Notes under the pieces: model-generated
What the model saw: only the letters and a program-made list of their open reading frames with translations
What the model was told of the DNA's origin: nothing
Database searches by the model: none
Part shown: one piece after another, positions 25,042 through 49,027 of the stretch
How positions within the stretch are numbered: position 1 is the first letter of the stretch
How the letters are laid out: each line of letters starts with the position of its first letter
DNA from: Bacteroidales bacterium
Lineage (GTDB): Bacteria > Bacteroidota > Bacteroidia > Bacteroidales > Marinilabiliaceae
Direction of reading: 5' to 3'
DNA: 64,000 bases
Assembly: GCA_024401335.1 (NCBI GenBank)
Contig: JAKSLH010000009.1
Coordinates: 1 to 64,000 of the forward strand
Made by a program: the position numbers and the translations under genes

Positions 25042-25044
25042 ATA

Positions 25045-25578: not shown

Positions 25579-25624
25579 TTTTTTCGGAGTACAAAAAATA
25601 TCATGGAATGGGAGAATATTCGCG

Positions 25625-26176
25625 TCACTCAATAACTCTTTCGCGAATCTTGACTGCAGGATTCCCTTGGTATATTCCCCATGCCTCCATATTCTTAGTT
25701 GCTACACTTCCTACGGTCAATATAGCATGAGACATAACGGTGACGCCAGGGCACACAACGCTTTTTGCTCCTATCCAAGCACCATCTTCGATGGTTATAG
25801 GTGCATTGCGATAGTCGAACGACGATGACTTATAATCGTGGTTGCCAGTAAGAAGCATAGCACCTTGAGAAAGACAAACGTCATTACCTATCGCAACTCT
25901 ATCGAGATTGTCAATCCACACGCCCTCACCTATCCACACATCGTCGCCAGCGACAAGGTTCCATGGTGATTTTACAATAACATTGTTCTTAATAACCATA
26001 CGAGCACCAATCTTAGCACCGAATAGCTTCAGAAGAAATATCTTAGGGGCCGCGAAAGGATTCCATGAAGCACGGACAAATAGTGCATTGACAAAATACC
26101 ACAGGGTACGCTTGACCAGCGAAGCACCTTTTTCGTAATTGCCAGTAGAGAATGTGTTCAGTTTCACATGCGTCAT
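25625..26176 (-). CDS. Colanic-acid-type acetyltransferase WcaF-like
   Basis: 183 residues. N-terminal 'LWYFVNALFVRASWNPFAAPKIFLLKLFGAKIG' region (read in parts) is the WcaF signature, followed by left-handed beta-helix repeats: 'IVKSPWNLVAGDDVWIGEGVWID', 'LTGNHDYKSSSFDY' with the catalytic-type His, 'ITIEDGAWIGAKSVVCPGV' and 'YQGNPAVKI'. It transfers acetyl from acetyl-CoA to a sugar hydroxyl of the growing surface polysaccharide. It precedes the second acetyltransferase by about 47 bp and follows a GT4 gene. Confidence 0.85.
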   Translation of the reverse strand: MTHVKLNTFSTGNYEKGASLVKRTLWYFVNALFVRASWNPFAAPKIFLLKLFGAKIGARMVIKNNVIVKSPWNLVAGDDVWIGEGVWIDNLDRVAIGNDVCLSQGAMLLTGNHDYKSSSFDYRNAPITIEDGAWIGAKSVVCPGVTVMSHAILTVGSVATKNMEAWGIYQGNPAVKIRERVIE

Positions 26177-26222
26177 AATCGGTAATGAAGATTTAGAGTT
26201 TTATAGTAACGTGTTCGAAATG

Positions 26223-27365: not shown

Positions 27366-27369
27366 AATG

Positions 27370-28455: not shown

Positions 28456-28465
28456 GCATTGTCAA

Positions 28466-29539
28466 TTAAGACCAGGCTACCAAATGAGCCTTTACCATAT
28501 ATTCAATAGTATGTTCTCTTATTTTTTGTAAATTTCGTTTACTCACGTTTAGAGACAACATCTCATCTTGCATTAAAGCCTCTATTTTAATTTTCAATTG
28601 GTCAGGGCTTTCTGTGTTAACAATCCATTCTTTGTCAACAAGCTCCACTCCTGCAACACATTTATTGGTTGTGATAACAGGAAGTCCAAAGGCCATTGCC
28701 TCATTAACAACTAATCCCCAGATATCCTCGCGCGTTGGGTGAACAAACAAATCTGCAGCTTTGAAATAATCTGACAGTTCTTCTTTCGTTTTGAATCCTT
28801 CAAAATGAACTTGAGTAAGCCTTAGCTTTTCTTGAATATCCAAATAATCGTCAGTAGGAGTTCCTCCAACAATATAAATGCCAATATTCTCATCCATATG
28901 CTCTGCTGTTTTCAACAACACATCGAACCCTTTTCTGTGAATAAATTGTCCTACTGCCAGTATCATCTTTTCTTCTTTTATACCAAGTTTCTTTCGAATT
29001 GTTTTTTTTTCTGAAGGCATAAGAACACATTCAATAACATCTTCATCTTTCAACGAACTAAACGGATAACGATAGATAGAATCAGACGCACCATAATAAT
29101 TCAGATATTCATCAGACCCCGTACTTGGACTAAAATAACCTATCGCACCTCCAATAAAGAATCTTTTAACATATCGTGCAATGAAACTTTCATTATATGA
29201 TATCATACCACCGTCCGTTTCAAACCAATATGGTAGTCCTTTTAGCTTGAGATATAACAAAGCCAACAATCCAGTATAGGTATGATATGCGGAAATAACA
29301 ACTTTATCATATCCATCAAGCATCTTTAAAACATTCCAATTAATTCGCTTTTCATCAAGTTGTTGGTCGTTTAAATATATTAACTCAAATGCTAAGTCTT
29401 TATCATCATTATAATTGAAACAAAGTGATGAAGAACGCTTAGACTCAACAAGTACTGTTAAGTTGACGTGCTTACCTAATTCATTATAAAAATCGACTCT
29501 ATAAGGAGTTGGTAGGTTAGTAAGAAACAGTATTTTCAT
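28466..29539 (-). CDS. Glycosyltransferase family 4 (GT-B)
   Basis: About 357 residues from ATG 29539 ('MKILFLTNLPTPYRVDFYNELGK'); a GTG two codons earlier is possible. The N-terminal motif 'PTPYRVDFYN' is common in capsule GT4 enzymes. C-terminal landmarks are 'ILAVGQFIHRKGFDVLLKTAE', 'VHFEGFKTKEELSDYFKAADLFVHPTREDIWGLVVNEAMAFGLPVI' (parts), with the E-x7-E-type EDIWGLVVNE. It starts a few bases from the stop of the FrhB-like gene, so it is in the same transcript. Confidence 0.87.
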   Translation of the reverse strand: MKILFLTNLPTPYRVDFYNELGKHVNLTVLVESKRSSSLCFNYNDDKDLAFELIYLNDQQLDEKRINWNVLKMLDGYDKVVISAYHTYTGLLALLYLKLKGLPYWFETDGGMISYNESFIARYVKRFFIGGAIGYFSPSTGSDEYLNYYGASDSIYRYPFSSLKDEDVIECVLMPSEKKTIRKKLGIKEEKMILAVGQFIHRKGFDVLLKTAEHMDENIGIYIVGGTPTDDYLDIQEKLRLTQVHFEGFKTKEELSDYFKAADLFVHPTREDIWGLVVNEAMAFGLPVITTNKCVAGVELVDKEWIVNTESPDQLKIKIEALMQDEMLSLNVSKRNLQKIREHTIEYMVKAHLVAWS

Positions 29540-29544
29540 TTTCA

Positions 29545-30666
29545 CTATAAATGAAGAATTCGCAAAATTTTATTTACTCCCAATATAAGTACAACCAAAT
29601 ATTTCAATTTTACTTTCCCATGATATTTATAAAAAAAATCATGGAATCTATGTTTAGGGACACTTATATAAATACTCTTATTATAACTTGCAACCTTACT
29701 GAAATCTATGGTACGGAATTGATATGGTACCAACTCAATAAATCTACTTCCTCTATTGGTGTTTACAATCAAAGTAGAACAACCTGTATCATCAACGTAA
29801 TCGGGATAGATAATAGCTCCCCCCCAAGTATCTGCACATGTCCAATCGCTCCCACTACTTAAGTTTTTAGCCTTACAGTTGTTACAAGATTGTCGCAAAT
29901 ACAAATCATGAATAAATCCTCTTAAAAAAGGATTGGCGTCCAAAGTTTCAGTTATATTTTGTTTTGAAGTCTTTATATCAAAACTATACTTTGACCAACC
30001 ATAGGTTTTGTCTCTGAAAGACACATTCTTAATTTTGTTTTGTTCATTTGTTTTTAACTTTGTTTTCAGCTCATCCAAGTAATTCTTCCAAACCATAGGA
30101 CTTGGAACACCATGACAAACAAAATCCAAACAATATAAGTGTTCATAATCCTTTCCTAAGAACAACTTCAGTCCTCTAACTTGACAAGGAGTTCCTGAAA
30201 AAAGGACTATTTTTCCCTCTTTTAAAAACTTTTCAACCAAAACAAAAGAGTTTCCCATTACACTCTGTACATATTTGCTTCCCCTAAACTTGTCAATATC
30301 CTTATAATCTTCAATATAACCATGTATTACATTCCAATTTTCATCAAACATTGCCCCAAAAACAATTCCACCTAACGAAAGTATTCTTTCAGCAATAACA
30401 GAAAAAACCCCTCCTGATGTACTACATCTACGAACTTCCAGATCAGGGTGTTTGAAAGCCAAAGTTTTTAACGGAATAGCTGATGTACCTACATTTTTAA
30501 TGGGGCAAGAAGCCTCGCAAATGTTACAGTTTACACATTTTTGTAAATCTACTGAAGGGTACAAAAAACCTTCGTAATTACTTTTCAGATCAATACAATG
30601 TAAAGGACATTTCTGTACACATGCACTGCAACCACAGCATTCATCCTCTTTTTTGATTTCTATCAT
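29545..30666 (-). CDS. FrhB/FdhB-like protein with two 4Fe-4S clusters, capsule-associated
   Basis: 373 residues. The N-terminus has two ferredoxin clusters: 'CCGCSACVQKCP' (about 10-21) and 'CVNCNICEASCP'. FrhB_FdhB N- and C-terminal domains follow, with 'RRCSTSGGVFSVIAERIL', 'FRGSKYVQSVMG', 'LFSGTPCQVRGL' and 'CHGVPSPMVW'. The family is named for coenzyme F420 hydrogenase beta subunits, but Bacteroidales do not make F420. Homologues sit in many polysaccharide loci next to pyruvyltransferases; a flavin-dependent reductive step on a sugar or polyprenol is a reasonable guess only. Its ATG overlaps the pyruvyltransferase stop by 4 bp. Confidence 0.85.
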   Translation of the reverse strand: MIEIKKEDECCGCSACVQKCPLHCIDLKSNYEGFLYPSVDLQKCVNCNICEASCPIKNVGTSAIPLKTLAFKHPDLEVRRCSTSGGVFSVIAERILSLGGIVFGAMFDENWNVIHGYIEDYKDIDKFRGSKYVQSVMGNSFVLVEKFLKEGKIVLFSGTPCQVRGLKLFLGKDYEHLYCLDFVCHGVPSPMVWKNYLDELKTKLKTNEQNKIKNVSFRDKTYGWSKYSFDIKTSKQNITETLDANPFLRGFIHDLYLRQSCNNCKAKNLSSGSDWTCADTWGGAIIYPDYVDDTGCSTLIVNTNRGSRFIELVPYQFRTIDFSKVASYNKSIYISVPKHRFHDFFYKYHGKVKLKYLVVLILGVNKILRILHL

Positions 30667-31709
30667 AATTCAAGAGAATCTTTTATAAACTGTAAAGAAT
30701 CTACTCTCATGGCATCGATTTTCTCGTCGATTTTTTTCCAGTCTATCTGTTGTTTAGAATGATTAATTTTATCATCGGAAACCATTCTCCCTTCAAGTCC
30801 AAATATATTCAACAACATTTGAATCCTTGCGTTTCCAGCCTTTTCATTAGACATGACGTAAAAGTTTTTATGAAACAAAATCGAAAAGACACATCCATGG
30901 AAAGAATCTGTAATGAAAATATCACAATAATATATCGAAGCTAACCAATCTTCAACACCAATTGAACGACTAAAATACCTCTTCAAAACATTTTTCTCCA
31001 CCTTCGAAAAAATGATTTCTGAATCTACTGGCAACATGTTATTTAGCACGTTAATTTTCTTCTCATTATTATGATCAAGTAAATAAACAAATGAATGCTT
31101 TTTGTTTGTTTTATAAGGAATCCCCCCTATTATTCTTTTATAAAAAAAGGAGTCAAACAACAAAGTAGGATCTAGTACACATTTGACATTCTTATTTCCC
31201 AGATATTTATGATACAATGTAATACCTGTATTCTCTCTTACTGAAATACTATGAAAATCCTTTACAAGTTCTCTTGCGATCACAGTTTCTGAATCTGTAA
31301 AATCCCAATAATCTACCCCAAATGATGCTGCGTAAGCAATTTTCTTTACTCCTCTATTATTATTAGTTTTTAGAAAATACCTATTGACATTATATACTCT
31401 ATCCTCTCCCATTGATGGTCTCCATACTTGGTCACTTCCTACAATCAACACATCAATTTCATACTTATCAAGATCATCTTTTGAAAAAGGAGATTCAGAT
31501 TTAACACAATTAATATTACGAGTAACGAATCTATAGTTTTTAGATAAAGAGTATAATGTTTTTTTTATAAAATCTTTTATTGATTTGCATGGCAAAGTCA
31601 TTACAACAGTATCACAACCTATTTTTTTTATGGCATTCTGAAGGGCATAAGCTTGTAATATGCCACCAAAATTGTAATGAAACGGCAAAGTGACAATACC
31701 TACTCTCAT
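30663..31709 (-). CDS. Polysaccharide pyruvyl transferase family protein
   Basis: 348 residues. The motifs 'PFHYNFGGILQAYALQNAI', 'LIVGSDQVWRPS', 'IAYAASFGV' and 'IFITDSFHGCVFSILF' define PS_pyruv_trans. Members transfer pyruvate from phosphoenolpyruvate onto a hexose as a ketal, adding negative charge; CsaB and WcaK are relatives. It overlaps both neighbours by 4 bp (ATGA type), so the GT4-pyruvyltransferase-FrhB block is tightly coupled. The surface polymer probably carries a pyruvate ketal if the enzyme is active. Confidence 0.88.
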   Translation of the reverse strand: MRVGIVTLPFHYNFGGILQAYALQNAIKKIGCDTVVMTLPCKSIKDFIKKTLYSLSKNYRFVTRNINCVKSESPFSKDDLDKYEIDVLIVGSDQVWRPSMGEDRVYNVNRYFLKTNNNRGVKKIAYAASFGVDYWDFTDSETVIARELVKDFHSISVRENTGITLYHKYLGNKNVKCVLDPTLLFDSFFYKRIIGGIPYKTNKKHSFVYLLDHNNEKKINVLNNMLPVDSEIIFSKVEKNVLKRYFSRSIGVEDWLASIYYCDIFITDSFHGCVFSILFHKNFYVMSNEKAGNARIQMLLNIFGLEGRMVSDDKINHSKQQIDWKKIDEKIDAMRVDSLQFIKDSLEL

Positions 31710-32956
31710 ATATTTAGTATTTTTTTTATTTCTGATGAATATTTCTGATGATAATCATTCCATGTGAAATTCAAAGCAGATTTTCGCGCATTTTCAGACA
31801 TACTATCTAACATGTCTTTGTTATTAATAATTAATCTGATTAAATGTTCTAATTCTTTTTCGGACAATGCATCATATATGAAACCATTTTCACCTTGTTC
31901 GACTGCCAAGTCACCACCTGAAAGGTTTGATATTAAAACAGGTGTTCCAGTACTTAATGCTTCTAAAATCACCATAGCAAACCCTTCGCCTAAACTTGGC
32001 AAAACAAATAGGTCGGATTTCTGATATTCTTTAGCAAGAACATCTCTTGTTGCGAAACCAATAAAATGAATATTAGAGCTACCTCCATATTGTCTAACAA
32101 TGCTATTGTCTGCTTTATAAGATCCTGCCAACGTTATGTCAACTTCCTTCTCCATCTTCGAAACCACATTCAATATGTGATGCAATCCTTTTCTATACGA
32201 AATTTGCCCTACAAACAACAGATGCAATCTTTCGTCTTTTTCCCTTTTTGTTTTTTTTGCATAATCAAATTTATCGGTATTAACACCATAAGGGACTTGA
32301 ATGATTTTCGACTTATCAATACCACAATACATTATGCTTTTCGAAACTATCTCAGAAGGCGAGAAAAAGTAATCAACATATTTCAATTCATTCCTGATAA
32401 CTTTTTCATATTTAGCATTCCACAAATAGCGTTCCTCGACATAGAACCAATCATGGTGATAAATGGCCATATCAGTCTCAAAGTTTTCCTTCATAAAAGG
32501 ACGCATAGAAATTGAAACATCCATTATTGTCTTAATTCGTGGAGCCTTTTCTTTTATCCTTTGTAATCCTTTTCTTGATATTCCGTCATACACTATTATT
32601 GCATCAACATCTTCACTAATTGCAATCTGAGCTACTTTATCTGCAAAATGATTACTCAAAGAGAGATTTAGCCTGAAAGACAGCCAAGATAAAAAAGGTA
32701 TTCTCGATATCAATAATACCAACAAACCCCATATTTCGTAAATCTGTAACACATCGTCATCTAACAACATGCTACAGCGCCTATCATTGGCTTTTTTCAA
32801 ATTACTATTGCCAAGCAAACATTTAAATCTCCCTGTAATAGAAGTTGGCTTGTCATATACTGTTGTAATATACTTATGAAGAACTCCTATCCTCTTTAAA
32901 GCTATAGCTGTCTCAAATGAATGTTGCTTACCTGGATGAGCTAATAATACCTTCAT
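31706..32956 (-). CDS. Glycosyltransferase family 4 (GT-B)
   Basis: 416 residues. 'HPGKQHSFETAIALKRIG' at the start, then 'DAIIVYDGISRKGLQ', and in the donor domain 'LHLLFVGQISYRKGLHHILNVV', 'IHFIGFATRDVLAKEYQKSDLFVLPSLGEGFAMVILEALSTGTPVLIS' (parts), with EGFAMVILE as E-x7-E motif. Very low G+C with many A/T-ending codons. It overlaps the wzy-like gene by 29 bp at its 5' end and the pyruvyltransferase by 4 bp at its 3' end. Confidence 0.88.
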   Translation of the reverse strand: MKVLLAHPGKQHSFETAIALKRIGVLHKYITTVYDKPTSITGRFKCLLGNSNLKKANDRRCSMLLDDDVLQIYEIWGLLVLLISRIPFLSWLSFRLNLSLSNHFADKVAQIAISEDVDAIIVYDGISRKGLQRIKEKAPRIKTIMDVSISMRPFMKENFETDMAIYHHDWFYVEERYLWNAKYEKVIRNELKYVDYFFSPSEIVSKSIMYCGIDKSKIIQVPYGVNTDKFDYAKKTKREKDERLHLLFVGQISYRKGLHHILNVVSKMEKEVDITLAGSYKADNSIVRQYGGSSNIHFIGFATRDVLAKEYQKSDLFVLPSLGEGFAMVILEALSTGTPVLISNLSGGDLAVEQGENGFIYDALSEKELEHLIRLIINNKDMLDSMSENARKSALNFTWNDYHQKYSSEIKKILNI

Positions 32957-34232
32957 GCTTTCCTAAACTAACATTAATATATTTTAGATGTATGTATTTT
33001 ATCAATAATGGCATGCAAAATAGTAAGAATATTTCGATTTGGCCAAAAATATAGCTAAATCCATGTGACGACAAATTAGGTAGATTGTATACAAAGCACA
33101 TATATATTATCATATATAGTGTCGATACCTTTGCTCTATTCCATATGAAACCAATGAGATAACCAGTAAAATAAAAAACAACGAACCCAAAATAGCCAAA
33201 TGCAGAGAATGCTTGAAAATAACCAGTTTGTGTTGTCACACCATGAGTGATCTTCTCTATATAATCATTATTATAATCAAAAACCATTAGTGACTTCTTA
33301 CCTTGCTCTCCAAATATAAATTTAGGGAAATACCATGTGACTATATCATTCCAAAGAAATAAGCCATAGTTGTAGTTCATATTGTCTTTACAATACTTTA
33401 TTAACAAAGCACCATTACCTAAATCCATTCCATGAATCAAATCAACATCATAATACGACGAAAGATAATTATCAATGTAGTTGATTTCAATTTTTTCATC
33501 ATCATTTCTATGTAAATTTCCCCTTACAATTCCAATACTCGCTTGACCAATAGTTCCAACAATAAAAAAAAGTACAATTAATTTTTTAATAATAGATTCG
33601 TATTTAGGTTTTAGCAGAGTCAAAAACAGCCCAGTATTTAAGATCAACTGAACAGTCACTGCTCTTCTAGCATTAAAAATAATCCTATATAAATAATAGA
33701 CAGTCCCCAGTATTAATATCACATATGCAATTCTAGAATTCTTATAACGTCTCAACAAATAGTTAAGTGCAAAATAAAAAGAAACGTCTAAGTAAATGAC
33801 AAAAAAATTAAGTACCTGAAACCTTGAATTCTTTCTAAAGTCTGTTGCGATATTTTGGTAATGTGATTCGATTTCAATATAACTATAATAAGCACATATA
33901 ATACCTATCACAAACATGACAACAAACAACCACTTTGATTTCTTCAAACTAACATCATAGCAACAGATAAAATGTTTGAATTGAGCCCGATCGAACCCCT
34001 TAGCAAAAGCGATTGTTCCAGTTATCATGCAAAAGGACAGGTCCCACAAAAGATATGAATCATAGTAAGAATCAATTGCAATAAATGACATTTGAGGCAA
34101 CATCATTAACATACTTGATAACGTAAAAATAAATGGCGCTTGAAAAACTCCATTTTTACGTCTGTAAAAATCAAATAATATGAAGAAACAGATAACAGAA
34201 AACAACAAAGGGAAGACAAGATACCAATTCAT
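32928..34232 (-). CDS. O-antigen/oligosaccharide repeat-unit polymerase (Wzy-like)
   Basis: 434 residues with about ten to twelve hydrophobic segments and a large central periplasmic loop (around 'IVRGNLHRNDDEKIEINYID' to 'GEQGKKSLMVFDYNND'), as in Wzy proteins, which join lipid-linked repeat units in the periplasm. Wzy sequences are too diverse for a firm call; topology, size and position between an acyltransferase and glycosyltransferases support it. It starts about 40 bp after the acyltransferase and overlaps the GT4 gene by 29 bp. Low G+C. Confidence 0.75.
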   Translation of the reverse strand: MNWYLVFPLLFSVICFFILFDFYRRKNGVFQAPFIFTLSSMLMMLPQMSFIAIDSYYDSYLLWDLSFCMITGTIAFAKGFDRAQFKHFICCYDVSLKKSKWLFVVMFVIGIICAYYSYIEIESHYQNIATDFRKNSRFQVLNFFVIYLDVSFYFALNYLLRRYKNSRIAYVILILGTVYYLYRIIFNARRAVTVQLILNTGLFLTLLKPKYESIIKKLIVLFFIVGTIGQASIGIVRGNLHRNDDEKIEINYIDNYLSSYYDVDLIHGMDLGNGALLIKYCKDNMNYNYGLFLWNDIVTWYFPKFIFGEQGKKSLMVFDYNNDYIEKITHGVTTQTGYFQAFSAFGYFGFVVFYFTGYLIGFIWNRAKVSTLYMIIYMCFVYNLPNLSSHGFSYIFGQIEIFLLFCMPLLIKYIHLKYINVSLGKHEGIISSSR

Positions 34233-34272
34233 ATTACTAATTGTTAATCCCCAAAAAGTTCACAACTAACAA

Positions 34273-35232
34273 TCACAAAGCTAATAGTCTATTCAAAGAC
34301 TTTTGAATATATCTGTTTAAATAAAAAAGAATTACAGAAATGAAAAAAGACAAAGCAATTAGTATAAATGTATTATCCAAATGTCCATTATTAAAACGGT
34401 ATAATTGTATATGAATCAAATAGATTTCGTATGAAAGATTTCCCGACACATATAGAAAAAGACTTCTATGAATGATTTTTATATATGAAAAGAATATAAT
34501 AAAAAAAACAGCGTATGAAAGCTTGATTCCTAGTTGCACAACATTAAAGAACGGCGTGTCAAGCTCTCTAACAAATGGAAACTGTTTGAAACGAAGTAAA
34601 AATGTCCCTATTGCTAATGCACCCAATGCAATAGTATATTTATTTCCAAGATGGGAACCTAAAACCATTCCTCTTTGAGACAAAACAACCCCTAAAAAGA
34701 AACTTAATCCTTGCTCTGCCTGTAGAGGGAATGGAAGGAAAACAGAAATAGTTCCCAACACCCCAATCATTATCAGTCTATATCTATAAAAATATTTAGT
34801 TGTGAGCCAAAAAACAAAATAACAATACACAAGATAAGACACATACCAGTATACTGTTTTTATACAAGTAACTGTCAAGAATAGATCTTTATAGGAAATT
34901 ATGTCTAAACATTTTAAAGACACCGCCACAATAATATTGGGGATAAAAATCCTAAAAAACCGCTTCTTCCAAAAGTTGTCCAACCCATTCTTTTTGTATG
35001 ATTCATTTAACCCATAACCAGACATCAATAGGAATATTGCGACACCTGTTCCACCTAGTGGAGTCAATATATTACTCCATTTCCCACAAAAATGATGTGC
35101 AACAACCATTATTATTGCAAATCCTCTAAGACTATTGGTATATATCCTATCCCCAAATTCTTGGACGTCCATTTTTATAGTTACTATAGATAGTATCAGA
35201 AAAAAAATTATAACAACAAAAACCTCTATCAT
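34273..35232 (-). CDS. Acyltransferase family 3 membrane protein
   Basis: About 319 residues from ATG 35232; a longer TTG frame (35283) adds residues that look non-coding. The family motif 'NSLRGFAIIMVVAHHFCG' with its His is seen after the first TM helix, then 'GTGVAIFLLMSGYGLNESYKKNG' and 'FWKKRFFRIFIPNI'. About ten TM helices. OatA-like proteins move acetyl groups across the inner membrane onto O-antigen or capsule sugars. Together with two cytoplasmic acetyltransferases, this suggests a heavily acylated polymer. About 195 bp separate it from the flippase. Confidence 0.83.
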   Translation of the reverse strand: MIEVFVVIIFFLILSIVTIKMDVQEFGDRIYTNSLRGFAIIMVVAHHFCGKWSNILTPLGGTGVAIFLLMSGYGLNESYKKNGLDNFWKKRFFRIFIPNIIVAVSLKCLDIISYKDLFLTVTCIKTVYWYVSYLVYCYFVFWLTTKYFYRYRLIMIGVLGTISVFLPFPLQAEQGLSFFLGVVLSQRGMVLGSHLGNKYTIALGALAIGTFLLRFKQFPFVRELDTPFFNVVQLGIKLSYAVFFIIFFSYIKIIHRSLFLYVSGNLSYEIYLIHIQLYRFNNGHLDNTFILIALSFFISVILFYLNRYIQKSLNRLLAL

Positions 35233-35323
35233 ATCACTTAGTAAGTTAAGATATCTGTAAAAAGCCCTAACTATTATTATCAATATAGCCTATTTAACGT
35301 GAGTTCGATGAAAATCTGTATTT

Positions 35324-35431
35324 TTATATTGAATTAGGCAAATGCAAACTATTATTAAACCCATGAGATCTTAGTTCTAAATTATTTCCCAAACAAAAGA
35401 ATTTGTATGGCACAACACAAAACAATTTCAT
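35324..35431 (-). CDS. Possible 35-residue ORF coupled to the flippase stop
   Basis: The ATG at 35431 overlaps the TGA of wzx (ATGA), the typical coupled arrangement, and opens a frame of 35 codons (begins MKLFCVVPYKFF, ends HLPNSI). It looks like the start of a gene that has lost its rest, or it is a chance frame in an AT-rich gap. No domain seen. Confidence 0.2.
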   Translation of the reverse strand: MKLFCVVPYKFFCLGNNLELRSHGFNNSLHLPNSI

Positions 35432-36726
35432 AATCGTCTAATGACATTTATACCTAACAAGCCAAAGGCTTTAGGGACTACTAAGAACACCATCAATATA
35501 TCCAATACCACATACCCTATTGTAGCACCTATCATTCCCATTTCACAAGACAGATAATAAGAAACTAGTGTTGATATACATGCGGATACTGTTCCGCATA
35601 TGGTGAACCTGTATGGTTTGTTCATTGCTCTATATACTATTTCGCTTGTCCACCAAACGGCATTAAATAAAACCCCTATCATAAATACGCACCAAACGTT
35701 ATCAGATACAACCAATTGATCTTTGGTCCACCATGCATATACTCTTGGTCCTACTAAACATAAAAAAACAACACCGAAAAATGCAGCTACTAAAACTATC
35801 TTCATAGAATTGTTAAACATCTTTTTTGCCTTATGAATATCTTTTGCTCCCACAGCTATCTGAAATTCAGGGAAAACAGATTGGTTTATCAGATTGTATA
35901 TCTGGTTTACTGATCTGCATAATGTTCTGACAGTGTTAAAAACAGCGACAGCCTCCGCACCTAGAGCTAACCTAACAACAAAAGTTGACCCTTGAAAATA
36001 TATGGCCTGCCATATAGGAGACAAAAGAAATCCAAACCCCTTTTTTAATATATCTTTTGCAAGCTCCTTTGAAAAAGAGGCTTTATCCATTACACCTATA
36101 AGTTTCAAACCCACTATAGCATAAACAATTTTATAAACGAAGGAAACAACCATAATTGATGATGCATACGCAACAACACCTCCACCTTTTTGTAAAACAA
36201 ATATGCCAACTATTATACAAGTCAAACTTTCAAGAGTACCTATATTTATCGCAGATGCCGCCCTTTCTTTTGCTCTATAAAACGCTTCGAATATTTGATT
36301 GTAGAAATTCACCAACTTGCTTCCCATCATAAAAACAAGAGAAGCGATAGCATCAGAAGGGGGAATCAATGATTTGTTCAAAAAGCCACCATAATAGGCC
36401 AATATCATAACAAAAAAACTAAGAACAATTCCAAACAGAACCGCCCAAGACACAATCGTTAAACCTGTTTTAAAAACAACAGCTGCCTTTTGTTTATCTC
36501 CTCCTGTATAAGCTAAAACAAAAGAATTAGAAGCTGCAGTTCCTAGTCCAAGATCTGAAAAAGCAAGTACACTCGGTATAATAGCCAACGTAAGCCATTC
36601 ACCATAATAAGCGGCTCCCCAAGCAGAAAGGAAGAAAGGCACAAGCAAAAGTTGCTCAGCGACACGTACTCCCTTAGATCCTACAGAGGCTATTCCGTTA
36701 AATATTATGTTTTTCTTAGTTGACAT
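35428..36726 (-). CDS. Polysaccharide flippase (Wzx-like, MOP superfamily)
   Basis: 432 residues with about twelve TM helices. The opening 'FNGIASVGSKGVRVAEQLLLVPFFLSAWGAAYYGEWL' (parts) and 'AFSDLGLGTAASNSFVLAYTGG' are typical of Wzx/PST exporters that flip undecaprenyl-linked repeat units to the periplasm. It is the first intact gene of the polysaccharide locus as transcribed. Its ATG overlaps by 11 bp the end of a gene fragment (36716-36865), so the original upstream gene has been lost. AT-rich like its neighbours. Confidence 0.85.
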   Translation of the reverse strand: MSTKKNIIFNGIASVGSKGVRVAEQLLLVPFFLSAWGAAYYGEWLTLAIIPSVLAFSDLGLGTAASNSFVLAYTGGDKQKAAVVFKTGLTIVSWAVLFGIVLSFFVMILAYYGGFLNKSLIPPSDAIASLVFMMGSKLVNFYNQIFEAFYRAKERAASAINIGTLESLTCIIVGIFVLQKGGGVVAYASSIMVVSFVYKIVYAIVGLKLIGVMDKASFSKELAKDILKKGFGFLLSPIWQAIYFQGSTFVVRLALGAEAVAVFNTVRTLCRSVNQIYNLINQSVFPEFQIAVGAKDIHKAKKMFNNSMKIVLVAAFFGVVFLCLVGPRVYAWWTKDQLVVSDNVWCVFMIGVLFNAVWWTSEIVYRAMNKPYRFTICGTVSACISTLVSYYLSCEMGMIGATIGYVVLDILMVFLVVPKAFGLLGINVIRRL

Positions 36727-37816: not shown

Positions 37817-39553
37817 TTAATCAAATAAAAGCTTAGATAATACAGTAGCCGTTTCATTCAAAAGATTGCCATCCATTTGGGAGACAAAGCATTTTACAAT
37901 ATATCTATAACCTTCCTCTGGGTTAATTTCCTTGATAGAAGCAATTATTAAAGTTTGATAAATATCGTCAGACATATTGTATGCCGAAATAAAAGCATCA
38001 CACAAAGCTTCTAAATCACTATCATTCAAGCGCCATGATATAAGAAAGTTCCACATGGCATCTTGATGATTATTATATTCAGCTGCAGAAAGAGCTGAAT
38101 TATAAAAAGCATTAGAATGCCGAATATGTATATTGTTATCTTTAAGACGCTCTGTTACTTTCATTTTTAATAATAAAGACGCAGACATATTCTTGATTTT
38201 ATCAACATACATGTTTTCGAACTTCTGGGCCTCTTCGTATTTGCCTTGACTAACAAGACAATCTGAAATAAGAATATCTATGTTTTCGCAACATTCAACA
38301 TTTAATCTTTTTGCCTTTTTGTAGAACAATTCTGCGAAGTAATAACGTCCAACTAAATAACAACATCCCGCAACCTCTTGATTCCAATAACATTGATCCT
38401 TATAAACAGGGAAGAACTTTGATGAAACTTTATAATGTTGTAAAGCCACTGCAAGATCATAGCATCTAAGTCTGTTTGCAAGATTATAGTACATGTGACC
38501 TTTTGTCTCATTGTCATTTACTGTTTCTAAATATCTATTTAGAAAACTCTCATATAACGTTTTGTCATTATCCTTAGTTGAACTAATAAAAAGTGCGAAG
38601 ACAATATATTGAGACAACTCAATTCCATTTACTATAGAACAATCAAATAGTTTGTTGAGGTTTTCAAGATTTTCGTTTTGTAGAGGCAAATCCATTATAA
38701 AGTCACGCCAGCAATCGGTAGGCACGATACCGAAATTACCATCATTCACATTCTGCAAAAGATACTTTGGAGCAGAAGTAACTACCTTACGTGACAGCAT
38801 AGCAATGACAAATACACTATTCAGCAACTCTTGAGGGCAATCATAATCCCTTAATTTCCTATAATATAAAAAATCCTTCTGTGATATTGACAATGGTATT
38901 TTTATGTTGTATTCATTACTCTCAAGAAACATAGAGCCTTCTGTAAGACTTCCTTCATAATTGATATGAATCTCAGAAACTGCTAAAGGATCATCAATTT
39001 TCACTGGGCCCTCTAACAATGTTGAAGATAGGCTCGCAAGATGTGCATTGAAATGACTGTGCTCAATTGAAGAATCCGAACACTGAAGACTGACACATCT
39101 CGTTAGCGTGACATCTATTTGCAACCCTATATTTGTTAGATAATCTCTATCAATTTCATTGGCATCAGTAAATGTCATCGTGATAGTCTGTTGGCTTTTT
39201 TCTTTCTCTGAAAGAGTATCGTATAGAGCATTCATCCACCGTCCCCAAAATCTTTTCTGAGTATTACTGTAATATACGAAAAGAACTGGCAAGTCAACTT
39301 TACTATAATCCTTGATGCGCTCGACAGACATTTGATATTTGATCAGACCATTCTCTGACAAGTCTTTTGTACCTTTTGATTGAATAAAAAAGAATCTTCC
39401 TGTTGTCTTATTATTATCAACGACCTCTATCAGCATATCAAGGCCATAATCAGACTCAGGGCGACTAATTGTCCACTCTTCTGGTATTAACTTAGCAGAA
39501 ATTTGCCTTACTGCATTATCGCCTGTAATATGATTATCTGGTCTAATTGCCAT
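37817..39553 (-). CDS. DUF4365 domain protein with C-terminal TPR-like repeats
   Basis: 578 residues. The N-terminal ~150 residues match DUF4365: 'ITGDNAVRQISAKLIPEEW', 'PESDYGLDMLIEVVD' and 'GRFFFIQSKGTKD', with an Asp (39) and Q-x-K (58-60) in the arrangement of a PD-(D/E)XK-type nuclease fold, Gln replacing the usual Glu. The rest is helical with TPR-like units ('HMYYNLANRLRCYDLAVALQHYK', 'AGCCYLVGRYYFAELFYKKAKRL', 'SDCLVSQGKYEEAQKFENMY'). DUF4365 proteins are frequent in defence islands. Ends 8 bp before a relic flippase start. Likely a nucleic-acid or protein-sensing effector (inference); no partner gene is obvious. Confidence 0.75.
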   Translation of the reverse strand: MAIRPDNHITGDNAVRQISAKLIPEEWTISRPESDYGLDMLIEVVDNNKTTGRFFFIQSKGTKDLSENGLIKYQMSVERIKDYSKVDLPVLFVYYSNTQKRFWGRWMNALYDTLSEKEKSQQTITMTFTDANEIDRDYLTNIGLQIDVTLTRCVSLQCSDSSIEHSHFNAHLASLSSTLLEGPVKIDDPLAVSEIHINYEGSLTEGSMFLESNEYNIKIPLSISQKDFLYYRKLRDYDCPQELLNSVFVIAMLSRKVVTSAPKYLLQNVNDGNFGIVPTDCWRDFIMDLPLQNENLENLNKLFDCSIVNGIELSQYIVFALFISSTKDNDKTLYESFLNRYLETVNDNETKGHMYYNLANRLRCYDLAVALQHYKVSSKFFPVYKDQCYWNQEVAGCCYLVGRYYFAELFYKKAKRLNVECCENIDILISDCLVSQGKYEEAQKFENMYVDKIKNMSASLLLKMKVTERLKDNNIHIRHSNAFYNSALSAAEYNNHQDAMWNFLISWRLNDSDLEALCDAFISAYNMSDDIYQTLIIASIKEINPEEGYRYIVKCFVSQMDGNLLNETATVLSKLLFD

Positions 39554-39941: not shown

Positions 39942-40454
39942 TTAGTTTTGCACCTTATCCAACAATGCATCATAAACTATCTCTCGACTCTTTAATTTTA
40001 AATATATTCCTCGTCCAAACTTACTTCCCCATTTTTTCTTCAATTTAGTTTCCGCTGTCCTATATGAACCATTATTATTTGGATGACATGATGAAACAAC
40101 AAAACATCTAACCTCATCATTATCTGATAATATTTTGGCACTATATAATTTTTCTATTGTACTATCCAACTGCTGTACCGCCTTTCCTACTTCTGTTCCC
40201 TTTAATTCTACAAACAAATACCGACAGCCTTTATATACAAACAAGTAATCACAACGAGACACTTCTGTCCCTTGGAACAGGACACCGTCAACCTTTATTT
40301 TTTCGGTATTTTCAACCGTGCCACTTCTCAGTCGGAAACTTTTGCCCATTTCACTTACATCAAAGCGCGAATTACAACTACACTTTGAGAGTTCAAACCT
40401 CTGGCGCAAATCTGTACCTGTGATTCTTAATTCATCAAAACATCTACAACTCAT
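39942..40454 (-). CDS. PD-(D/E)XK nuclease-like protein coupled to AAA ATPase
   Basis: 170 residues. The ATG at 40454 overlaps the ATPase TGA (ATGA); a TTG at 40466 is also in frame but the overlap start is preferred. The core 'VSRCDYLFVYK' then 'YLFVELKGTEVGKAVQQLD' gives D69…E83-L-K85, the D-x(n)-E-x-K pattern of restriction-endonuclease-like folds, with a following helix. An N-terminal 'CxC' and 'CSC' cluster could bind metal. The family is not one I can name. Translational coupling to an AAA ATPase suggests a two-protein complex, as in several anti-phage systems (inference). Confidence 0.7.
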   Translation of the reverse strand: MSCRCFDELRITGTDLRQRFELSKCSCNSRFDVSEMGKSFRLRSGTVENTEKIKVDGVLFQGTEVSRCDYLFVYKGCRYLFVELKGTEVGKAVQQLDSTIEKLYSAKILSDNDEVRCFVVSSCHPNNNGSYRTAETKLKKKWGSKFGRGIYLKLKSREIVYDALLDKVQN

Positions 40455-41590
40455 TTCTTGTGGCAATATAGGATATCGGTCAATGAGTCAGTTATTGCCA
40501 GTGTATTTTCTGACACACTGTCAAGATGCTCTGCACCAACATTTCGCAATTCCTCATTTCTAATGTCTTTCGCTACGCCATCAGAAGAGAAATAATAAGA
40601 ACTAACATCTTGAAAATCTATTAGCCATTCACCTTTCAATGGACTAACATCAAATGGCAAATCATTCTTTCTAATAAATTCATTGGCATCATAGCCCATC
40701 ACAAGATTGTCTACCGCAGTCAACACATACGGACTATGAGTAGTAAGAACCAAACTCTTATTTTGATACTTATTGAAAACCTCAGCTAACCAATTGATCA
40801 TTTCAACCTGATTCTTTGGAAAAAGGTTTTGTTCTGGCTCTTCAATAATAAATAAATTTTCTCTCTTTTTCTCAATATTCGACAACAATACTGCGACGAG
40901 TGGACCAGACGACTGTACTCCACTTGAACCTAACCTTAATGGCATTATCTCATTCTGTCCACCCATAGAGAATGATGGATTATCTCCATTCAGATAAAAC
41001 AATGCCCCATTGAGGAAAGGTGCACTATAGCTCCGATTCTCTTTGCGCGCTTTATCATACAAACTGCCAAAACGTTTAATACATTCTGACATATTAATTT
41101 TGTCGCTCTGAAGTGCCATCATACTGCCGTATAACTGGGTCATCAACATACGCTCTGTGGCAATATATACCGATGATCCGTAATCCTCCATATTCGACAA
41201 TATCTTCAAGAGATTTTCAAGCGTTTCGCTATCAAGTGTCTTTTCACGAAGTTTCTCTATTACACTTGAATCAGACAACGCCCTATAATCGGGAGGAAGA
41301 TTGTTTGTATCAATTTTCCCCTTTGTTATTCGCCAGTATTTCTTTCCGTTAGAATAATCAATATATGTGTTATTTAAAAGCTCATAATCTACGTCGTACT
41401 TTCTCAGCATATCGACAAACAATTCATATCCTTCGCTTCCAATCATCGAAATCTCAGGACTATTCATTATCGCCAATAATTTTGCAGCAGTACTCTTTCC
41501 AGCTGACGTATCACCGATAAAAATATTAACCCTTCTGATGTCAAGTTCAGCACTCTTTATCGGACCGAAATTCTTAATTATTAACCTCAT
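40451..41590 (-). CDS. AAA (ABC-like) ATPase of OLD/RecF type, partner of nuclease-like gene
   Basis: 379 residues. Begins 'MRLIIKNFGPIKSAELDI', the usual start of SMC/OLD/RecF-like ATPases. Walker A 'GDTSAGKST' (26-34), signature-like 'LGSSGVQSS' (220-228), Walker B 'LFIIEEPEQNLFP' (246-258) and switch His in 'TTHSPYVLT' (283-291) are intact. A ~180-residue helical insertion separates Walker A from the signature. No TOPRIM domain follows, unlike OLD or GajA; the nuclease role would be on the coupled downstream protein. Resembles the ATPase halves of Septu, PARIS and related systems in layout, but the partner differs. The promoter is probably upstream of 41590. Confidence 0.85.
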   Translation of the reverse strand: MRLIIKNFGPIKSAELDIRRVNIFIGDTSAGKSTAAKLLAIMNSPEISMIGSEGYELFVDMLRKYDVDYELLNNTYIDYSNGKKYWRITKGKIDTNNLPPDYRALSDSSVIEKLREKTLDSETLENLLKILSNMEDYGSSVYIATERMLMTQLYGSMMALQSDKINMSECIKRFGSLYDKARKENRSYSAPFLNGALFYLNGDNPSFSMGGQNEIMPLRLGSSGVQSSGPLVAVLLSNIEKKRENLFIIEEPEQNLFPKNQVEMINWLAEVFNKYQNKSLVLTTHSPYVLTAVDNLVMGYDANEFIRKNDLPFDVSPLKGEWLIDFQDVSSYYFSSDGVAKDIRNEELRNVGAEHLDSVSENTLAITDSLTDILYCHKK

Positions 41591-41625: not shown

Positions 41626-41817
41626 TTATACATTCCTTATTAATTTTCCCGTAACGCTATAGTGTTTGCTGATCTTTGTTCCACAAATATTTGTCGCGAA
41701 GATACTGGCGTGTTCGTGGCTTATGGCCTGGTCGTCGATCTCGGCCCCGTTGATGAAGCCATATAGTTCGCACCAGAAGCAGTCGAGCAAGGTCAAACAT
41801 CCCGTCTTCTTCAACAT
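41626..41817 (-). CDS. Small ORF of uncertain status between fic and the ATPase gene
   Basis: 63 residues from ATG 41817, which is 12 bp after the fic stop; an in-frame TTG overlaps the fic stop. Third codon positions are clearly G/C-biased in this frame, as in native coding sequence, for about 45 codons. The protein ('CELYGFINGAEIDDQAISHE', 'CGTKISKHYSVTGKLIRNV') matches nothing I know. It could be a small partner of Fic, or the remnant of a larger gene. Confidence 0.35.
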   Translation of the reverse strand: MLKKTGCLTLLDCFWCELYGFINGAEIDDQAISHEHASIFATNICGTKISKHYSVTGKLIRNV

Positions 41818-41828
41818 ACCTATCTCTC

Positions 41829-42647
41829 TCAATAGCGCGTGAGAATATCATCTTCTCCGACAGACGTAATATATGCATCAATATCACTCTTCAGATGTCT
41901 GCAATGTAATTCCGTCATGCAATTGACTATCACCTCCATGCCTTCTTTCTCGCGCGTATCTATCAGTGCTTGTATATATTCTGCCTTGTCTTCCTTGAGC
42001 ACCTTCATCGGCAACATGCCAAACTCCATCTGCAACAGGTTCATCAATAGTCTGCATGTGCGGCCATTGCCATCTGCCCACGGATGAATGGTTACAAGCT
42101 CGAAATGTGCCCAGAAACTCAGTTCATATATTGATGCAATATCACCAGGGTCAATGGATTTTCGACGACGATTCAACTCGTCGCAGAAAGCGGCAACCTT
42201 CATCGGCACCTTTGTGAACGACATATACGATTTACCGCCCAAACCAGCAGTGACATTTACCTTACGGAACTCACCCCTAGCCGCCGAAAAATCTCCCACT
42301 ACAGTATGGAATTCGGCACCTGTTCGCGCCATCACCTTTGAAGCCAATAGCACTAGCCATTCGGGGGTTATCGCCTCATGACGCATTATCCACTGACGAC
42401 CATAGTCGTAAGCTGTCTTGAGGTCGAGATTCATATTATGCTCAATAATGGAACGCTTGCTGGACGTAATGCCTTCATCAAACAGTAATTGCGCTTCAAC
42501 TTCTGTTACCGTTGATCCCTCTATTGCTGTAGAGTGAGTGATTATGGAGTAGAGATAAAACTTCTCATAGTCAATCTGCTCCCATATCCCCAGACTCTTG
42601 TGTCTCAACACCAACTCCTGCAAATTCTTCCTATTTTCCTCCTTCAT
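41829..42647 (-). CDS. Fic family protein, class II (N-terminal inhibitory helix)
   Basis: 272 residues. The Fic motif 'HPWADGNGRTCR' (188-199) carries the catalytic His188 and the Asp, Asn and Arg residues that bind ATP/Mg. The motif 'STAIEG' (39-44) is the S/T-x-x-x-E-G/N inhibitory helix, with Glu43 able to block the ATP gamma-phosphate site. So it is a self-inhibited class II Fic enzyme, expected to AMPylate proteins on Ser/Thr/Tyr once the inhibition is relieved. 'GDFSAARGEFRKVNV' before it is the usual flap region. No separate FicA antitoxin is needed. Between a RelA/SpoT gene and a candidate defence pair. The start at 42647 lacks a good SD and lies just behind a 13-bp palindrome. Confidence 0.88.
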   Translation of the reverse strand: MKEENRKNLQELVLRHKSLGIWEQIDYEKFYLYSIITHSTAIEGSTVTEVEAQLLFDEGITSSKRSIIEHNMNLDLKTAYDYGRQWIMRHEAITPEWLVLLASKVMARTGAEFHTVVGDFSAARGEFRKVNVTAGLGGKSYMSFTKVPMKVAAFCDELNRRRKSIDPGDIASIYELSFWAHFELVTIHPWADGNGRTCRLLMNLLQMEFGMLPMKVLKEDKAEYIQALIDTREKEGMEVIVNCMTELHCRHLKSDIDAYITSVGEDDILTRY

Positions 42648-42787: not shown

Positions 42788-43807
42788 TTACCTTATAAAT
42801 TTTTCAATTGCTTCAATAAACTCCTGAGAGTCGAGGAAGTAGCTCGGATATGCTTCGCGAAGCTCTATCATCTTAGCTACAGACGTGAGTAATACTGCCG
42901 TTGTGTTGTTGTCTATCTTACCTTCCATACTGGTGAAGAGATCCGTCGCCTTCTGTATGTCTTTTTTGCCATATACCTTATATGTCAATCGACTCTTGCT
43001 ATAGTCAATATATAGCACACAGAGCGCATTGTCCTCATTAACAATAGAGTCGGTTATTGCAGTTACACGAAGTGCCTTCAACTTGTCAAGAAATTTGCTC
43101 GATGCGTCAAGACTGTGATATTCTGCCAAGAAACGGTTTTTATCGTAATCTACAAATGCTTCATTGACATTGCAATTCTCTGTTCTCGCCAATATAGCAC
43201 TAACAAGTTTGAAAAAATGACGCCACTCTGGATTGTCATCCGTGTTTGCCTTGAGACTTGTTTTTACTATCACACCTGCAGTCTCTACAGCCATCGCCCA
43301 TGAATGTTGCAGTCTGGTGCGTATTTGTAGCTCTATTTGTAATCCATCGTAGTTATTGTCTTCAGAATGATACTTATATACAAAATGAATACTACGATAA
43401 CCGCTGCATTTAGGCGAAGATATGTAGTCATTAATCTTTGTCAATTCAAAGCCTTCAAATGTTGACTTGCTGATAGCTTCTTCTGCGGCATGCACACTAT
43501 CGACAGAAGCAAACACATATCTGATGCCGCCTATGTCTTGCAGTCCTCCTAGACGCATCTGCGGATTAACCTCTAATTTTCCAAGTATAGAAGTCATACG
43601 CTTGATACGCTGTGAACTAAATTCAAATGCTATATTATGGCTGGCAAATAATGCATTGAGCTGCGCTTCAAGTTCCTTAAGTGGATGGAAATGCAACATA
43701 CGCCAGTCATTGACACGAGCTAAAGCCTCTTCGTGAGAAAAGAATTCTGCCTCTTTATCGCATAGAATTACTCCATCTTTATTCAACGAACTTCGAGTGT
43801 ATTTCAT
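42788..43807 (-). CDS. Stand-alone RelA/SpoT-domain (p)ppGpp/nucleotide pyrophosphokinase
   Basis: 339 residues. The synthetase fold is complete: 'QRIKRMTSILGKL' (66-78, ATP-binding Arg/Lys), 'LQDIGGIRYVF' (metal Asp91), 'NDYISSPKCSGYRSIHFV' (G-loop Tyr137) and 'LQIELQIRTRLQHSWA' (Glu159). No HD hydrolase, TGS or ACT domain, so it is a small alarmone synthetase-type protein. The C-terminal ~150 residues are an additional domain of unknown role. Some relatives make (p)ppGpp or ppApp; others (ToxSAS) pyrophosphorylate tRNA CCA ends; fused CapRel senses phage capsid. No antitoxin is obvious beside it. Its island setting beside Fic and the AAA pair favours a stress or defence role (inference). 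Confidence 0.82.
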   Translation of the reverse strand: MKYTRSSLNKDGVILCDKEAEFFSHEEALARVNDWRMLHFHPLKELEAQLNALFASHNIAFEFSSQRIKRMTSILGKLEVNPQMRLGGLQDIGGIRYVFASVDSVHAAEEAISKSTFEGFELTKINDYISSPKCSGYRSIHFVYKYHSEDNNYDGLQIELQIRTRLQHSWAMAVETAGVIVKTSLKANTDDNPEWRHFFKLVSAILARTENCNVNEAFVDYDKNRFLAEYHSLDASSKFLDKLKALRVTAITDSIVNEDNALCVLYIDYSKSRLTYKVYGKKDIQKATDLFTSMEGKIDNNTTAVLLTSVAKMIELREAYPSYFLDSQEFIEAIEKFIR

Positions 43808-46106: not shown

Positions 46107-46451
46107 ATGATTACAATCGAAGGAATAGACCCAATGATGATAGCGAACAATCTGACACCATCAGACCCTATACATCCTGGTGAACTAATAAAGGACGAAA
46201 TAGAGAGCCGAGGATTGAAGCAAAGATCTCTTGCTCAAAAGATGGGTGTATCATATAGTGTGTTAAACGAAATACTGAATGGGAAACGTCCGGTATCAAC
46301 GGAATACGCATTAATGTTTGAAGCGGCATTAGGCATAGATGCCAATATATGGTTGAAAACACAAGCCGACTACAACCTGCAAATGGCAAAACGCAACATA
46401 TTGTTTGTAGAAAAACTAAAGGAAATACGTAGAGCTGTAGCAGTGCTCTAA
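46107..46451 (+). CDS. higA: HigA-like antitoxin (XRE family), apparently orphan
   Basis: 114 residues. 'HPGELIKDEIESRGLKQRSLAQKMGVSYSVLNEILNGKRPVS' (parts, about 27-67) is the HigA helix-turn-helix, followed by 'GIDANIWLKTQADYNLQMAK', a close match to the chromosomal HigA family. It normally follows a higB RelE-like toxin gene; here only 28 bp separate it from the CotH gene, and no RelE-type frame is present on either side. It may be a solitary regulator, or the toxin has been lost. A strong terminator follows. Confidence 0.88.
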   Translation: MITIEGIDPMMIANNLTPSDPIHPGELIKDEIESRGLKQRSLAQKMGVSYSVLNEILNGKRPVSTEYALMFEAALGIDANIWLKTQADYNLQMAKRNILFVEKLKEIRRAVAVL

Positions 46452-46534: not shown

Positions 46535-49027
46535 TTATCCCATGATGACTTCAACGGTATGCTTGCCTTCGGCATGCTTCACGATAGTGCCGCTGACAGC
46601 TTTGCCATCGACAACAACACTCTTGACGCCTTTCTGAACTCCCTGTGGGTTCTTGATAGTGATGTCGTATTCTGCTCCACGAAGCACTCGCTTGATCTTA
46701 TACTCCTTCATTGAAGAAGGAATACATGGATCGATCATGATACCATCGTAAGTAGGCTTAACGCCAAGGATGAACTGAGTGATTGTGTACCAGTTCCAAG
46801 CTGCTGTTCCAGTAAGCCAAGAGTTCTTTCCTTCACCTGGCTTAGCAGCATCTTTGCCGGCTACCATCTGCGAATATACGTATGGTTCAACCTTATGGAG
46901 TGTCTGATCTTTGATAAATGCTGGACAGATCTTTGTATAGTGTTCCCACGCATCGTTACCACGGCCGGCTACTGTCTCACCGATGATGACCCAAGGGTTG
47001 TTGTGGCAGAAGATACCTGCATTCTCCTTGTATCCTGCAGGATATGATGATATCTCACCCATCTCTACGTGATATGTTGTGTATGCTGGCCAGTTGAGAA
47101 CCATACCATGCTCACAGTCAAGATATTTCTTGCAAGAGTCAAGCGCCTTGTCTACAAGGCCTTCCTCGAGACCGATACCGGCCATTGTGCAGAAACCCTG
47201 GCTCTCGATGAAGATCTTGCCTTCTTCATTCTCGTTAGAACCTATCTTGTTGCCATAGTAGTCGTATGCTCGGAGATACCATTCGCCGTCCCAGCCATGC
47301 TTCTTGACAGCCTCGACCATTGAGTCGATGCACTTCTGAGCACGACCAGCCTCGTCGGACTTCTTGAGAACATTGCAGAGCTCAACATAGTCGCGTCCGC
47401 AGAGCACGAAGAGACCAGCTATCATGAGCGACTCTGCTTTTGTGCCTTCTGTCTTGTTCTCTGTCGTCTGGAAACTCTCATTTGGATCCCATGAGAAGCA
47501 GTTGAGGTTAAGACAGTCGTTCCAGTCTGCTCGCCCGATAAGTGGAAGCATGTGAGGACCGAGGTTCTCTACTACATGATTGAATGATATGCGGAGGTGA
47601 TCGAAGAGGCTAACCTCTGTGCCAGGCTGATTGTCCCATGGTACCATCTCATCGAGGATAGTGAAATCACCTGTCTCCTTGATATAGGCTACTGTTCCGA
47701 AGATGAGCCACATTGGATCGTCGTTGAAGCCGCCACCGATATCGTTGTTTCCTCGCTTGGTGAGTGGCTGATACTGATGGTAGCAACCGCCGTCAGGGAA
47801 CTGTGTTGAGGCTATGTCAATGATGCGCTGACGTGCTCGGCTTGGCACCTGATGAACGAAGCCTACAAGGTCCTGGTTGGAATCACGGAAGCCCATACCT
47901 CGACCGATGCCGCTCTCGAAGAATGACGCTGAACGAGAGAAATTGAAAGTGATCATACACTGGTACTGGTTCCAGATGTTGACCATACGGTCGAGACGCT
48001 CATCGCCTGATACAACTGTATACTTATCAAGAAGAACATCCCATGAAGCGCGGAGCTCAGCAAATGCAGCATCAACAGCAGCCACTGTAGAGAACTTCTC
48101 GATAACAGCCTTAGCCTTCTTCTTGTTGACAAGAGTGCGGTCGGAAGCCTGTGACGAGATGAGAGCGCCACTCTTCTTGCGAGCGATCTCAGCATCGTCG
48201 AACTTCTCATCCTGCTCGTTCTCGACATAACCGAGGAGGAAGATGAAATCTTTGCTCTCTCCTGCCTTGAGTTCTACTTCGATATAATGCGAAGCGATAG
48301 GGCTCCAACCATGTGCAAGGCTATTAGAAGGCTTACCAGCCATTACACACTGAGGAGCAGCGAACTCATTGTAGAGTCCAATGAAGCTCTCACGATCGGT
48401 GTCGTATCCTTGCACTGGCACGTTGACTGAATAGTAGGCATAGTGATTGCGGCGTTCCTTATATTCTGTCTTATGATAGATGACGCTACCGTCGATCTCA
48501 ACTTCACCAGTAGAGAAGTTACGCTGGAAATTCTCCATATCGGTAGCCGCGTTCCAGAGACACCACTCCTGGAAAGAGAAGAGCTTGATCTTCTTAGTAG
48601 CGCTTGTAGTATTCTTGAGAGTAACCTTCTGAACCTCAGCCCATGTCTTGAGAGGAACGAAGAAGAGAACAGACGCCTCGATGCCATTCTTGGCACCTGT
48701 GATGCGTGTGTAGTTCATACCATGACGACACTCGTAGGAGTCAAGCGGTGTCTTACATGGCTTCCAACCTGGCGACCAGACTGTACCATTGTCATTGATG
48801 TAGAAATAACGGCCACCATTGTCCATTGGCACACCATTATAACGATAACGAGTGATGCGGCGGAACTTAGCATCCTTGTAGAATGAGTAACCACCTGCGG
48901 TGTTGGAAATAAGTGAGAAGAAATCCTCGTTGCCAAGATAGTTGATCCATGGCCATGGGGTCATCGGGTCGGTGATGACATACTCTCGGTTCTTATCGTC
49001 AAAGTGACCGTAAATCTTGTTCTCCAT
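46535..49027 (-). CDS. GH94 phosphorylase, probable cellobiose phosphorylase
   Basis: 830 residues, the size of cellobiose phosphorylase. It splits a beta-linked disaccharide with inorganic phosphate into alpha-glucose-1-phosphate and a sugar, saving ATP. The N-terminal domain has '[31 protein letters not shown]' (parts), '[18 protein letters not shown]', and the (alpha/alpha)6 barrel has '[13 protein letters not shown]' and '[12 protein letters not shown]' (about residue 500) with the general acid Asp. '[14 protein letters not shown]'-like C-terminal part is typical. No signal peptide, so cytoplasmic. Substrate is likely cellobiose, but cellodextrin or laminaribiose is possible. It stands alone with G/C-ending codons. 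Confidence 0.87.

Follow-up and report, generated by a model that had tools for sequence, protein, structure and literature searches.

Among described bacterial systems of defence against phages, those closest to the locus considered here combine an ATPase with a nuclease of the PD-(D/E)XK type. WonAB from the WASA-1 prophage (Nat Microbiol 2025; PMC12137116) consists of an OLD-type ABC ATPase and a PD-(D/E)xK nuclease; it depends on both genes and on the active sites of both proteins, and the ATPase is required for the toxicity of the nuclease. Under its action translation appears to stop, with host DNA intact and phage DNA replication near normal (2.7-fold defect). Its authors assign it to a wider, uncharacterised family in which ABC-ATPase sensors are joined to nuclease effectors, and cite an in silico survey in which an operon of an OLD-ABC ATPase and a novel restriction endonuclease (REase) occurs in 0.96% of bacterial genomes, including all detected WonAB (PMC12137116). 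PD-T4-4 of E. coli was obtained in 2022 from a functional selection (PMC9519451) and combines an AAA_15 ATPase with a PD-(D/E)XK nuclease (PMC10952713); the DefensePredictor study (PMC13092281) likewise reports validated systems that contain PD-(D/E)XK and P-loop domains. Here we analyze a stretch of 64,000 nucleotides (the window, 64 kb) from a Bacteroidales bacterium (assembly GCA_024401335.1, contig JAKSLH010000009.1, positions 1 to 64,000), whose minus strand carries at 39942-41590 a gene for an ATPase of 379 residues (40451-41590) followed by one for a partner of 170 residues (39942-40454), the coordinates and frames being exact. The best reading of this pair is that it constitutes a divergent branch of the abortive-infection kind that joins an ABC ATPase to a PD-(D/E)XK nuclease.

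Comparison of the two proteins with PADLOC-DB 2.0.0 recovered PDC-M29A as the first of 125 matches of the ATPase at E <= 1 (1.3e-28), with AriA (2.4e-25), PD-T4-4_A (8.9e-17) and PtuA (2e-13) among the others, and PDC-M29B as the sole match of the partner at the same cut-off (6.3e-8, 30.9 bits; partial coverage, residues 61-144). We take PDC to be the PADLOC label for phage defence candidates. A reading made from the letters alone (the sequence-only reading) had proposed the pair as an undescribed system, could name no family for the small protein and had not noticed that both genes match a PADLOC candidate pair. We reject the proposal of an undescribed system because of the PADLOC match and the papers on WonAB and PD-T4-4 (PMC12137116, PMC9519451 and PMC10952713). 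What is already known is the architecture, tested as WonAB and, by domain content, as PD-T4-4, and the pair itself is catalogued as the PDC-M29 candidate; new here are the divergent branch, marked by a conserved CxC...CxC at the N-terminus of the nuclease, the near-strict pairing of the two genes and the link to a tested mechanism. The name PDC-M29 was not found in the journal literature searched by that name, and no description of the pair was found in the literature searched, which had preprints outside its scope and was queried once for PDC-M29 by name.

PDC-M29 is the best profile match of both proteins, and a canonical member in another genome (L003; 1.7e-179 for the ATPase and 7e-71 for the nuclease) shares the gene order and the four-base overlap of the genes. 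Because this canonical member scores far higher, with 595 and 211-235 bits against 98 and 31 for the window pair, we place the latter on a divergent branch; the CxC...CxC N-terminus of the window nuclease is a further difference from PDC-M29. The L003 nuclease in addition shows a weak match to a Cas4 model (6.2e-5), Cas4 being a PD-(D/E)XK family.

The ATG of the partner lies at 40454-40452 and the stop codon of the ATPase at 40451, which confirms the ATGA coupling described in the sequence-only reading as an exact overlap at 40451-40454. A four-base overlap is also the commonest spacing of the two genes, being found in 19 of 49 pairs as scripted, or 20 of 49 when the window pair is read from its ATG. 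Scans for promoters and terminators remained at chance level. A profile of the nuclease found matches in 21 of 393 genomes of the order, at 24 places, and at 23 of these (the window counted) the ATPase lies upstream on the same strand, the lone exception being a nuclease fragment (L050). The 23 include two places where the ATPase is split over two open frames (L037 and L056), and stop codons fall inside the nuclease match at four places (L036, L039, L040 and L043). The survey of co-occurrence that had been called for thus found the small protein mostly with the ATPase. The PDC-M29B model recovered 29 places, 22 of them clearly paired with the ATPase (again counting the window). As to the remaining seven, L014 and L015 stand at contig ends, L016 is a degenerate fragment with an ATPase on its other side, and L027-L030 are weak matches (E 6e-5 to 9e-4) without the ATPase of this pair, two of which (L027 and L030) are proteins of 525 residues that look P-loop-like at the N-terminus and have a D...E-x-K stretch at the C-terminus. 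A scan of genome contigs yielded two loci, one with the pair (L031) and one with the nuclease at a contig edge (L032).

Searches with the ATPase lead to the same picture. At E <= 1e-15, 9 of 295 genomes searched in the order gave 11 places, and at E <= 1e-30, 13 of 395 genomes in the phylum gave 16. All 27 of these loci (25 distinct), a count that covers matches at these strict cut-offs, have a nuclease of the family alongside. Some of the loci had gone into the training of the broad nuclease profile, but those of the phylum search other than the window had not. In control regions the profiles matched none of 712 open reading frames. Moreover, the distances between the partner proteins correlate over 49 non-redundant pairs (r 0.62), a value reached in none of 5000 permutations (maximum 0.15) and uncontrolled for kinship of the hosts. 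The pairing of ATPase and nuclease is hence nearly strict in the genomes sampled.

The PDC-M29B match, a structural model and weak fold matches together point to the 170-residue protein (39942-40454, minus strand, as are all the features below unless stated) as a predicted PD-(D/E)XK nuclease and the predicted effector. The model is a confident one (predicted local distance difference test, pLDDT, 90.9; predicted template modelling score, pTM, 0.89), and in it D69, E83, K85 and Q95 are predicted to be laid out as in PD-(D/E)XK nucleases, supporting the earlier description of the partner as PD-(D/E)XK-like. D69, part of a C68-D69 motif and predicted to be catalytic (40248-40250), is placed directly before strand 70-74; the likewise predicted catalytic E83-L84-K85 (40200-40208) occupies the end of strand 78-84, and the conserved Q95 (40170-40172) falls in helix 89-105, after the strand with the E-x-K. 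The D69...E83-L-K85 pattern is present as first described: E83 and K85 are identical in 73 of 73 close aligned proteins (the window protein counted) and in all 56 rows (55 distinct) of a broad alignment, Q95 in 73 of 73 and 53 of 56 respectively, and among the close proteins C68 is kept in all 73 and D69 in 72. Judged from these alignments, the conservation of the five residues is beyond chance. Further upstream, the protein displays C3-x-C5...C25-x-C27 (40374-40448), with cysteine at these positions in 64, 63, 64 and 68 of the 73 close proteins, suggesting that the close subfamily may have a metal site there. Fold searches gave weak matches, mostly to nucleases and including EndoMS, EcoT38I and BsmI; we take most of them to be PD-(D/E)XK nucleases. 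The protein had no NCBIfam match, Pfam matches that were all weak (best E 0.12), and no match in a sequence search of solved structures with the nuclease profile.

The upstream gene (40451-41590) codes for an OLD/Rad50-type ABC ATPase, the predicted sensor or regulator of the pair, with Pfam matches to AAA_15 (5e-22), AAA_21 (4.9e-9) and, weakly, AAA_23 (0.011). As the sequence-only reading had it, the ATPase motifs are intact, and their conservation was read from a 72-row alignment. In Walker A (residues 26-34, G26xxxxG31-K32-S33; 41489-41515) G26, G31, K32 and S33 are invariant; in the ABC signature-like motif (residues 222-227, S222-S223-G224-V-Q226-S227; 40910-40927) G224 is invariant and S222, S223, Q226 and S227 are kept in at least 90% of rows; Walker B (residues 246-251, FII-E250-E251, then P-E253; 40838-40855) has E250, E251, P252 and E253 invariant; and the switch (H-loop) histidine H285, in T284-H285 (40736-40738), is kept in at least 90%. 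The fold is predicted to be of the Rad50/PtuA type, with Rad50 among the best structural matches, and a sequence search of solved structures gave a weak match to EcfA2. Pfam recovered no TOPRIM domain, again as had been claimed; unlike Gabija and OLD, in which TOPRIM is fused to the ATPase, the protein finishes in a helix (residues 353-378, 40457-40534, from DSSP on the model) in which D357, S360 and L370 are invariant. By analogy with the WonAB model, this C-terminal helix is a candidate docking surface for the nuclease.

With WonAB the pair shares an OLD-type ABC ATPase without TOPRIM and a separate gene for a predicted PD-(D/E)xK nuclease, a likeness at the level of architecture. The mutated residues K34, R182, E300 and H333 of WonA have plausible counterparts in K32, R147, E251 and H285, and K71 of WonB in K85, as judged by role and order rather than by alignment. 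The two differ in the spacing from the arginine to Walker B (118 in WonA against 104 here, by residue numbers) and in setting, WonAB being prophage-borne and the window pair lying in an island beside polysaccharide-type genes. As described in the WonAB paper, the OLD-ABC ATPase and novel REase operon has the same architecture; the survey that defined it is reportedly that of Krishnan 2020. PD-T4-4 has the same domain content and its A model matches the window ATPase, as given above, whereas the window nuclease has no PD-T4-4 match at E <= 1, with the set of B models that PADLOC-DB includes unchecked. The other named systems differ in their effectors, that of PARIS (AriB) being of the TOPRIM type (PMC10568477) and that of Septu (PtuB) an HNH protein (PMC10952713). 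Neither Pfam nor PADLOC found DUF4435, AriB or HNH in the window nuclease, which instead displays the D...E-x-K...Q pattern and the PD-(D/E)XK layout of the model; the sequence-only reading had set this nuclease type apart from HNH, DUF4435 and TOPRIM-helicase partners.

The pair is accessory and mobile. Among the 15 genomes of the genus (seven at least 90% complete) the ATPase is present in one, its own. Two plasmids, of Bacteroides finegoldii and a Muribaculaceae bacterium, carry a related ATPase with the nuclease beside it; a plasmid search with the window nuclease gave no match, and one with a canonical nuclease gave a single match. A 4.7-kb scaffold with an unverified phage label (L033) has the pair, and viral contigs searched with patterns of the close subfamily yielded none. 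Named relatives are Bacteroidota. The flanking gene at 46535-49027 was sought in the 15 genus genomes, and seven stretches adjoining it were read; none has the other 13 window genes tested, but three of them end early at contig ends, so that no insertion boundary was found. No tRNA was found in the window, and the island edges showed no convincing repeats.

On balance we consider it probable that the pair, a conserved two-gene module, is of the WonAB and PDC-M29 kind and defends against phages by abortive infection under the control of its ATPase. By analogy with the tested system we infer that it senses infection, likely targets RNA and protects against phage. The ATPase would dimerise with ATP between its subunits, carry the nuclease on its C-terminal helices and, in response to a phage-made signal, turn it on; the nuclease would then cut a nucleic acid needed by the cell, an RNA of the translation machinery being likelier than the chromosome, as proposed for WonB, so that the infected cell would halt before the phage matures. 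A more specific proposal, which we hold to be less likely than not, makes the pair the founder of a separate branch of ATPase-gated nucleases: its effector would join a PD-(D/E)XK core to an N-terminus that binds metal through Cys4 and, upon activation by a sensor resembling Rad50, would cleave one particular tRNA or rRNA.

PD-(D/E)XK enzymes usually cut DNA. This, together with the EndoMS, EcoT38I and BsmI matches of the nuclease and the resemblance of the ATPase to Rad50, a DNA-end binder, would fit a restriction-type defence, as in Gabija or partly in Septu: phage or plasmid DNA would be recognised by the ATPase and cut directly by the nuclease, and the cell would survive. We hold this to be unlikely, since the architectural relative WonAB spares host DNA, leaves phage DNA replication near normal and appears to stop translation (PMC12137116), and no modification gene was seen among the island open reading frames, as judged by eye only. 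The nearly strict pairing, the overlap of the genes and their presence on plasmids would also suit an addiction module akin to toxin-antitoxin systems, in which the ATPase neutralises the nuclease; such a module would serve to maintain plasmids or islands, with defence as a side effect. However, the WonAB ATPase is described as needed for toxicity and not for its neutralisation (PMC12137116), making this quite improbable. A housekeeping DNA-repair complex of the Rad50-Mre11 (SbcCD) type, suggested by Rad50 among the structural matches, can practically be dismissed, given an ATPase not found in the 14 other genus genomes, a nuclease profile in so few genomes of the order and a partner pattern, D...E-x-K, that is not of the Mre11 type.

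Pfam bears out the Fic, RelA/SpoT and DUF4365 genes that the sequence-only reading had placed in the island. The RelA/SpoT-type synthetase (42788-43807) has a very strong match to another PADLOC candidate, PDC-S33 (3e-95), and is present in 2 of the 15 genus genomes; a second copy (L137), which shares 93% identity, has a Fic gene truncated by the contig end at a distance of about 1.4 kb. The Fic gene of the island matches PDC-S04 (1.1e-19). The gene at 37817-39553 codes for a 578-residue protein with an N-terminal DUF4365 domain and a weak PADLOC match to Aga_REase-PNTD1-PNTD2 (8e-8), and may be another defence protein. Short overlapping open reading frames at 41626-41887, between the Fic and ATPase genes, are perhaps the remnant of a gene end, and 46107-46451 encodes a HigA-family antitoxin (TIGR02607, 8e-20). 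The island stands at the edge of a long locus (24130-36726) read from its translations as polysaccharide genes, and the same pair, where carried by the B. finegoldii plasmid (L119), lies amid annotated glycosyltransferases; the module may have a hotspot in polysaccharide loci.

For relatives of the pair elsewhere, we compared 119 neighbours from 16 loci (17 were fetched and L087 dropped, its nuclease not being called) with 123 control proteins, reduced from 131 by leaving out L104. At E <= 1e-15 the neighbours matched 98 PADLOC families against 9 for the controls, a contrast due mostly to two loci, as attributed by one-by-one scans of 10 of the 119: two type I restriction-modification proteins of L100 match 76 and 18 families, and the Cas13b effector of L093 (8804-12307; 3.6e-255), near a relative of the pair, matches 2. 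One further type I methylase match was not assigned to a locus. Matches to mad3 came from two proteins in each set, and the control matches (mad3, mad8, IetA and an RtcR-type CARF regulator) are to models that themselves stand for defence-linked proteins. When both sets were scanned with Pfam, no family was common to more than four neighbours. A general association with dense defence islands is weakly supported, named defence systems having been placed at only 2 of the 16 loci. Defence neighbours are clear at the window locus and rare elsewhere.

These results tie PDC-M29, an uncharacterised catalogue entry whose two genes are nearly inseparable, to the tested mechanism of WonAB. If the nuclease cuts RNA, the PD-(D/E)XK effectors that act by stopping translation would gain one more branch, and, should the more specific proposal be true, a fold known chiefly for DNA cleavage would have been turned into a translation-stopping immune RNase.
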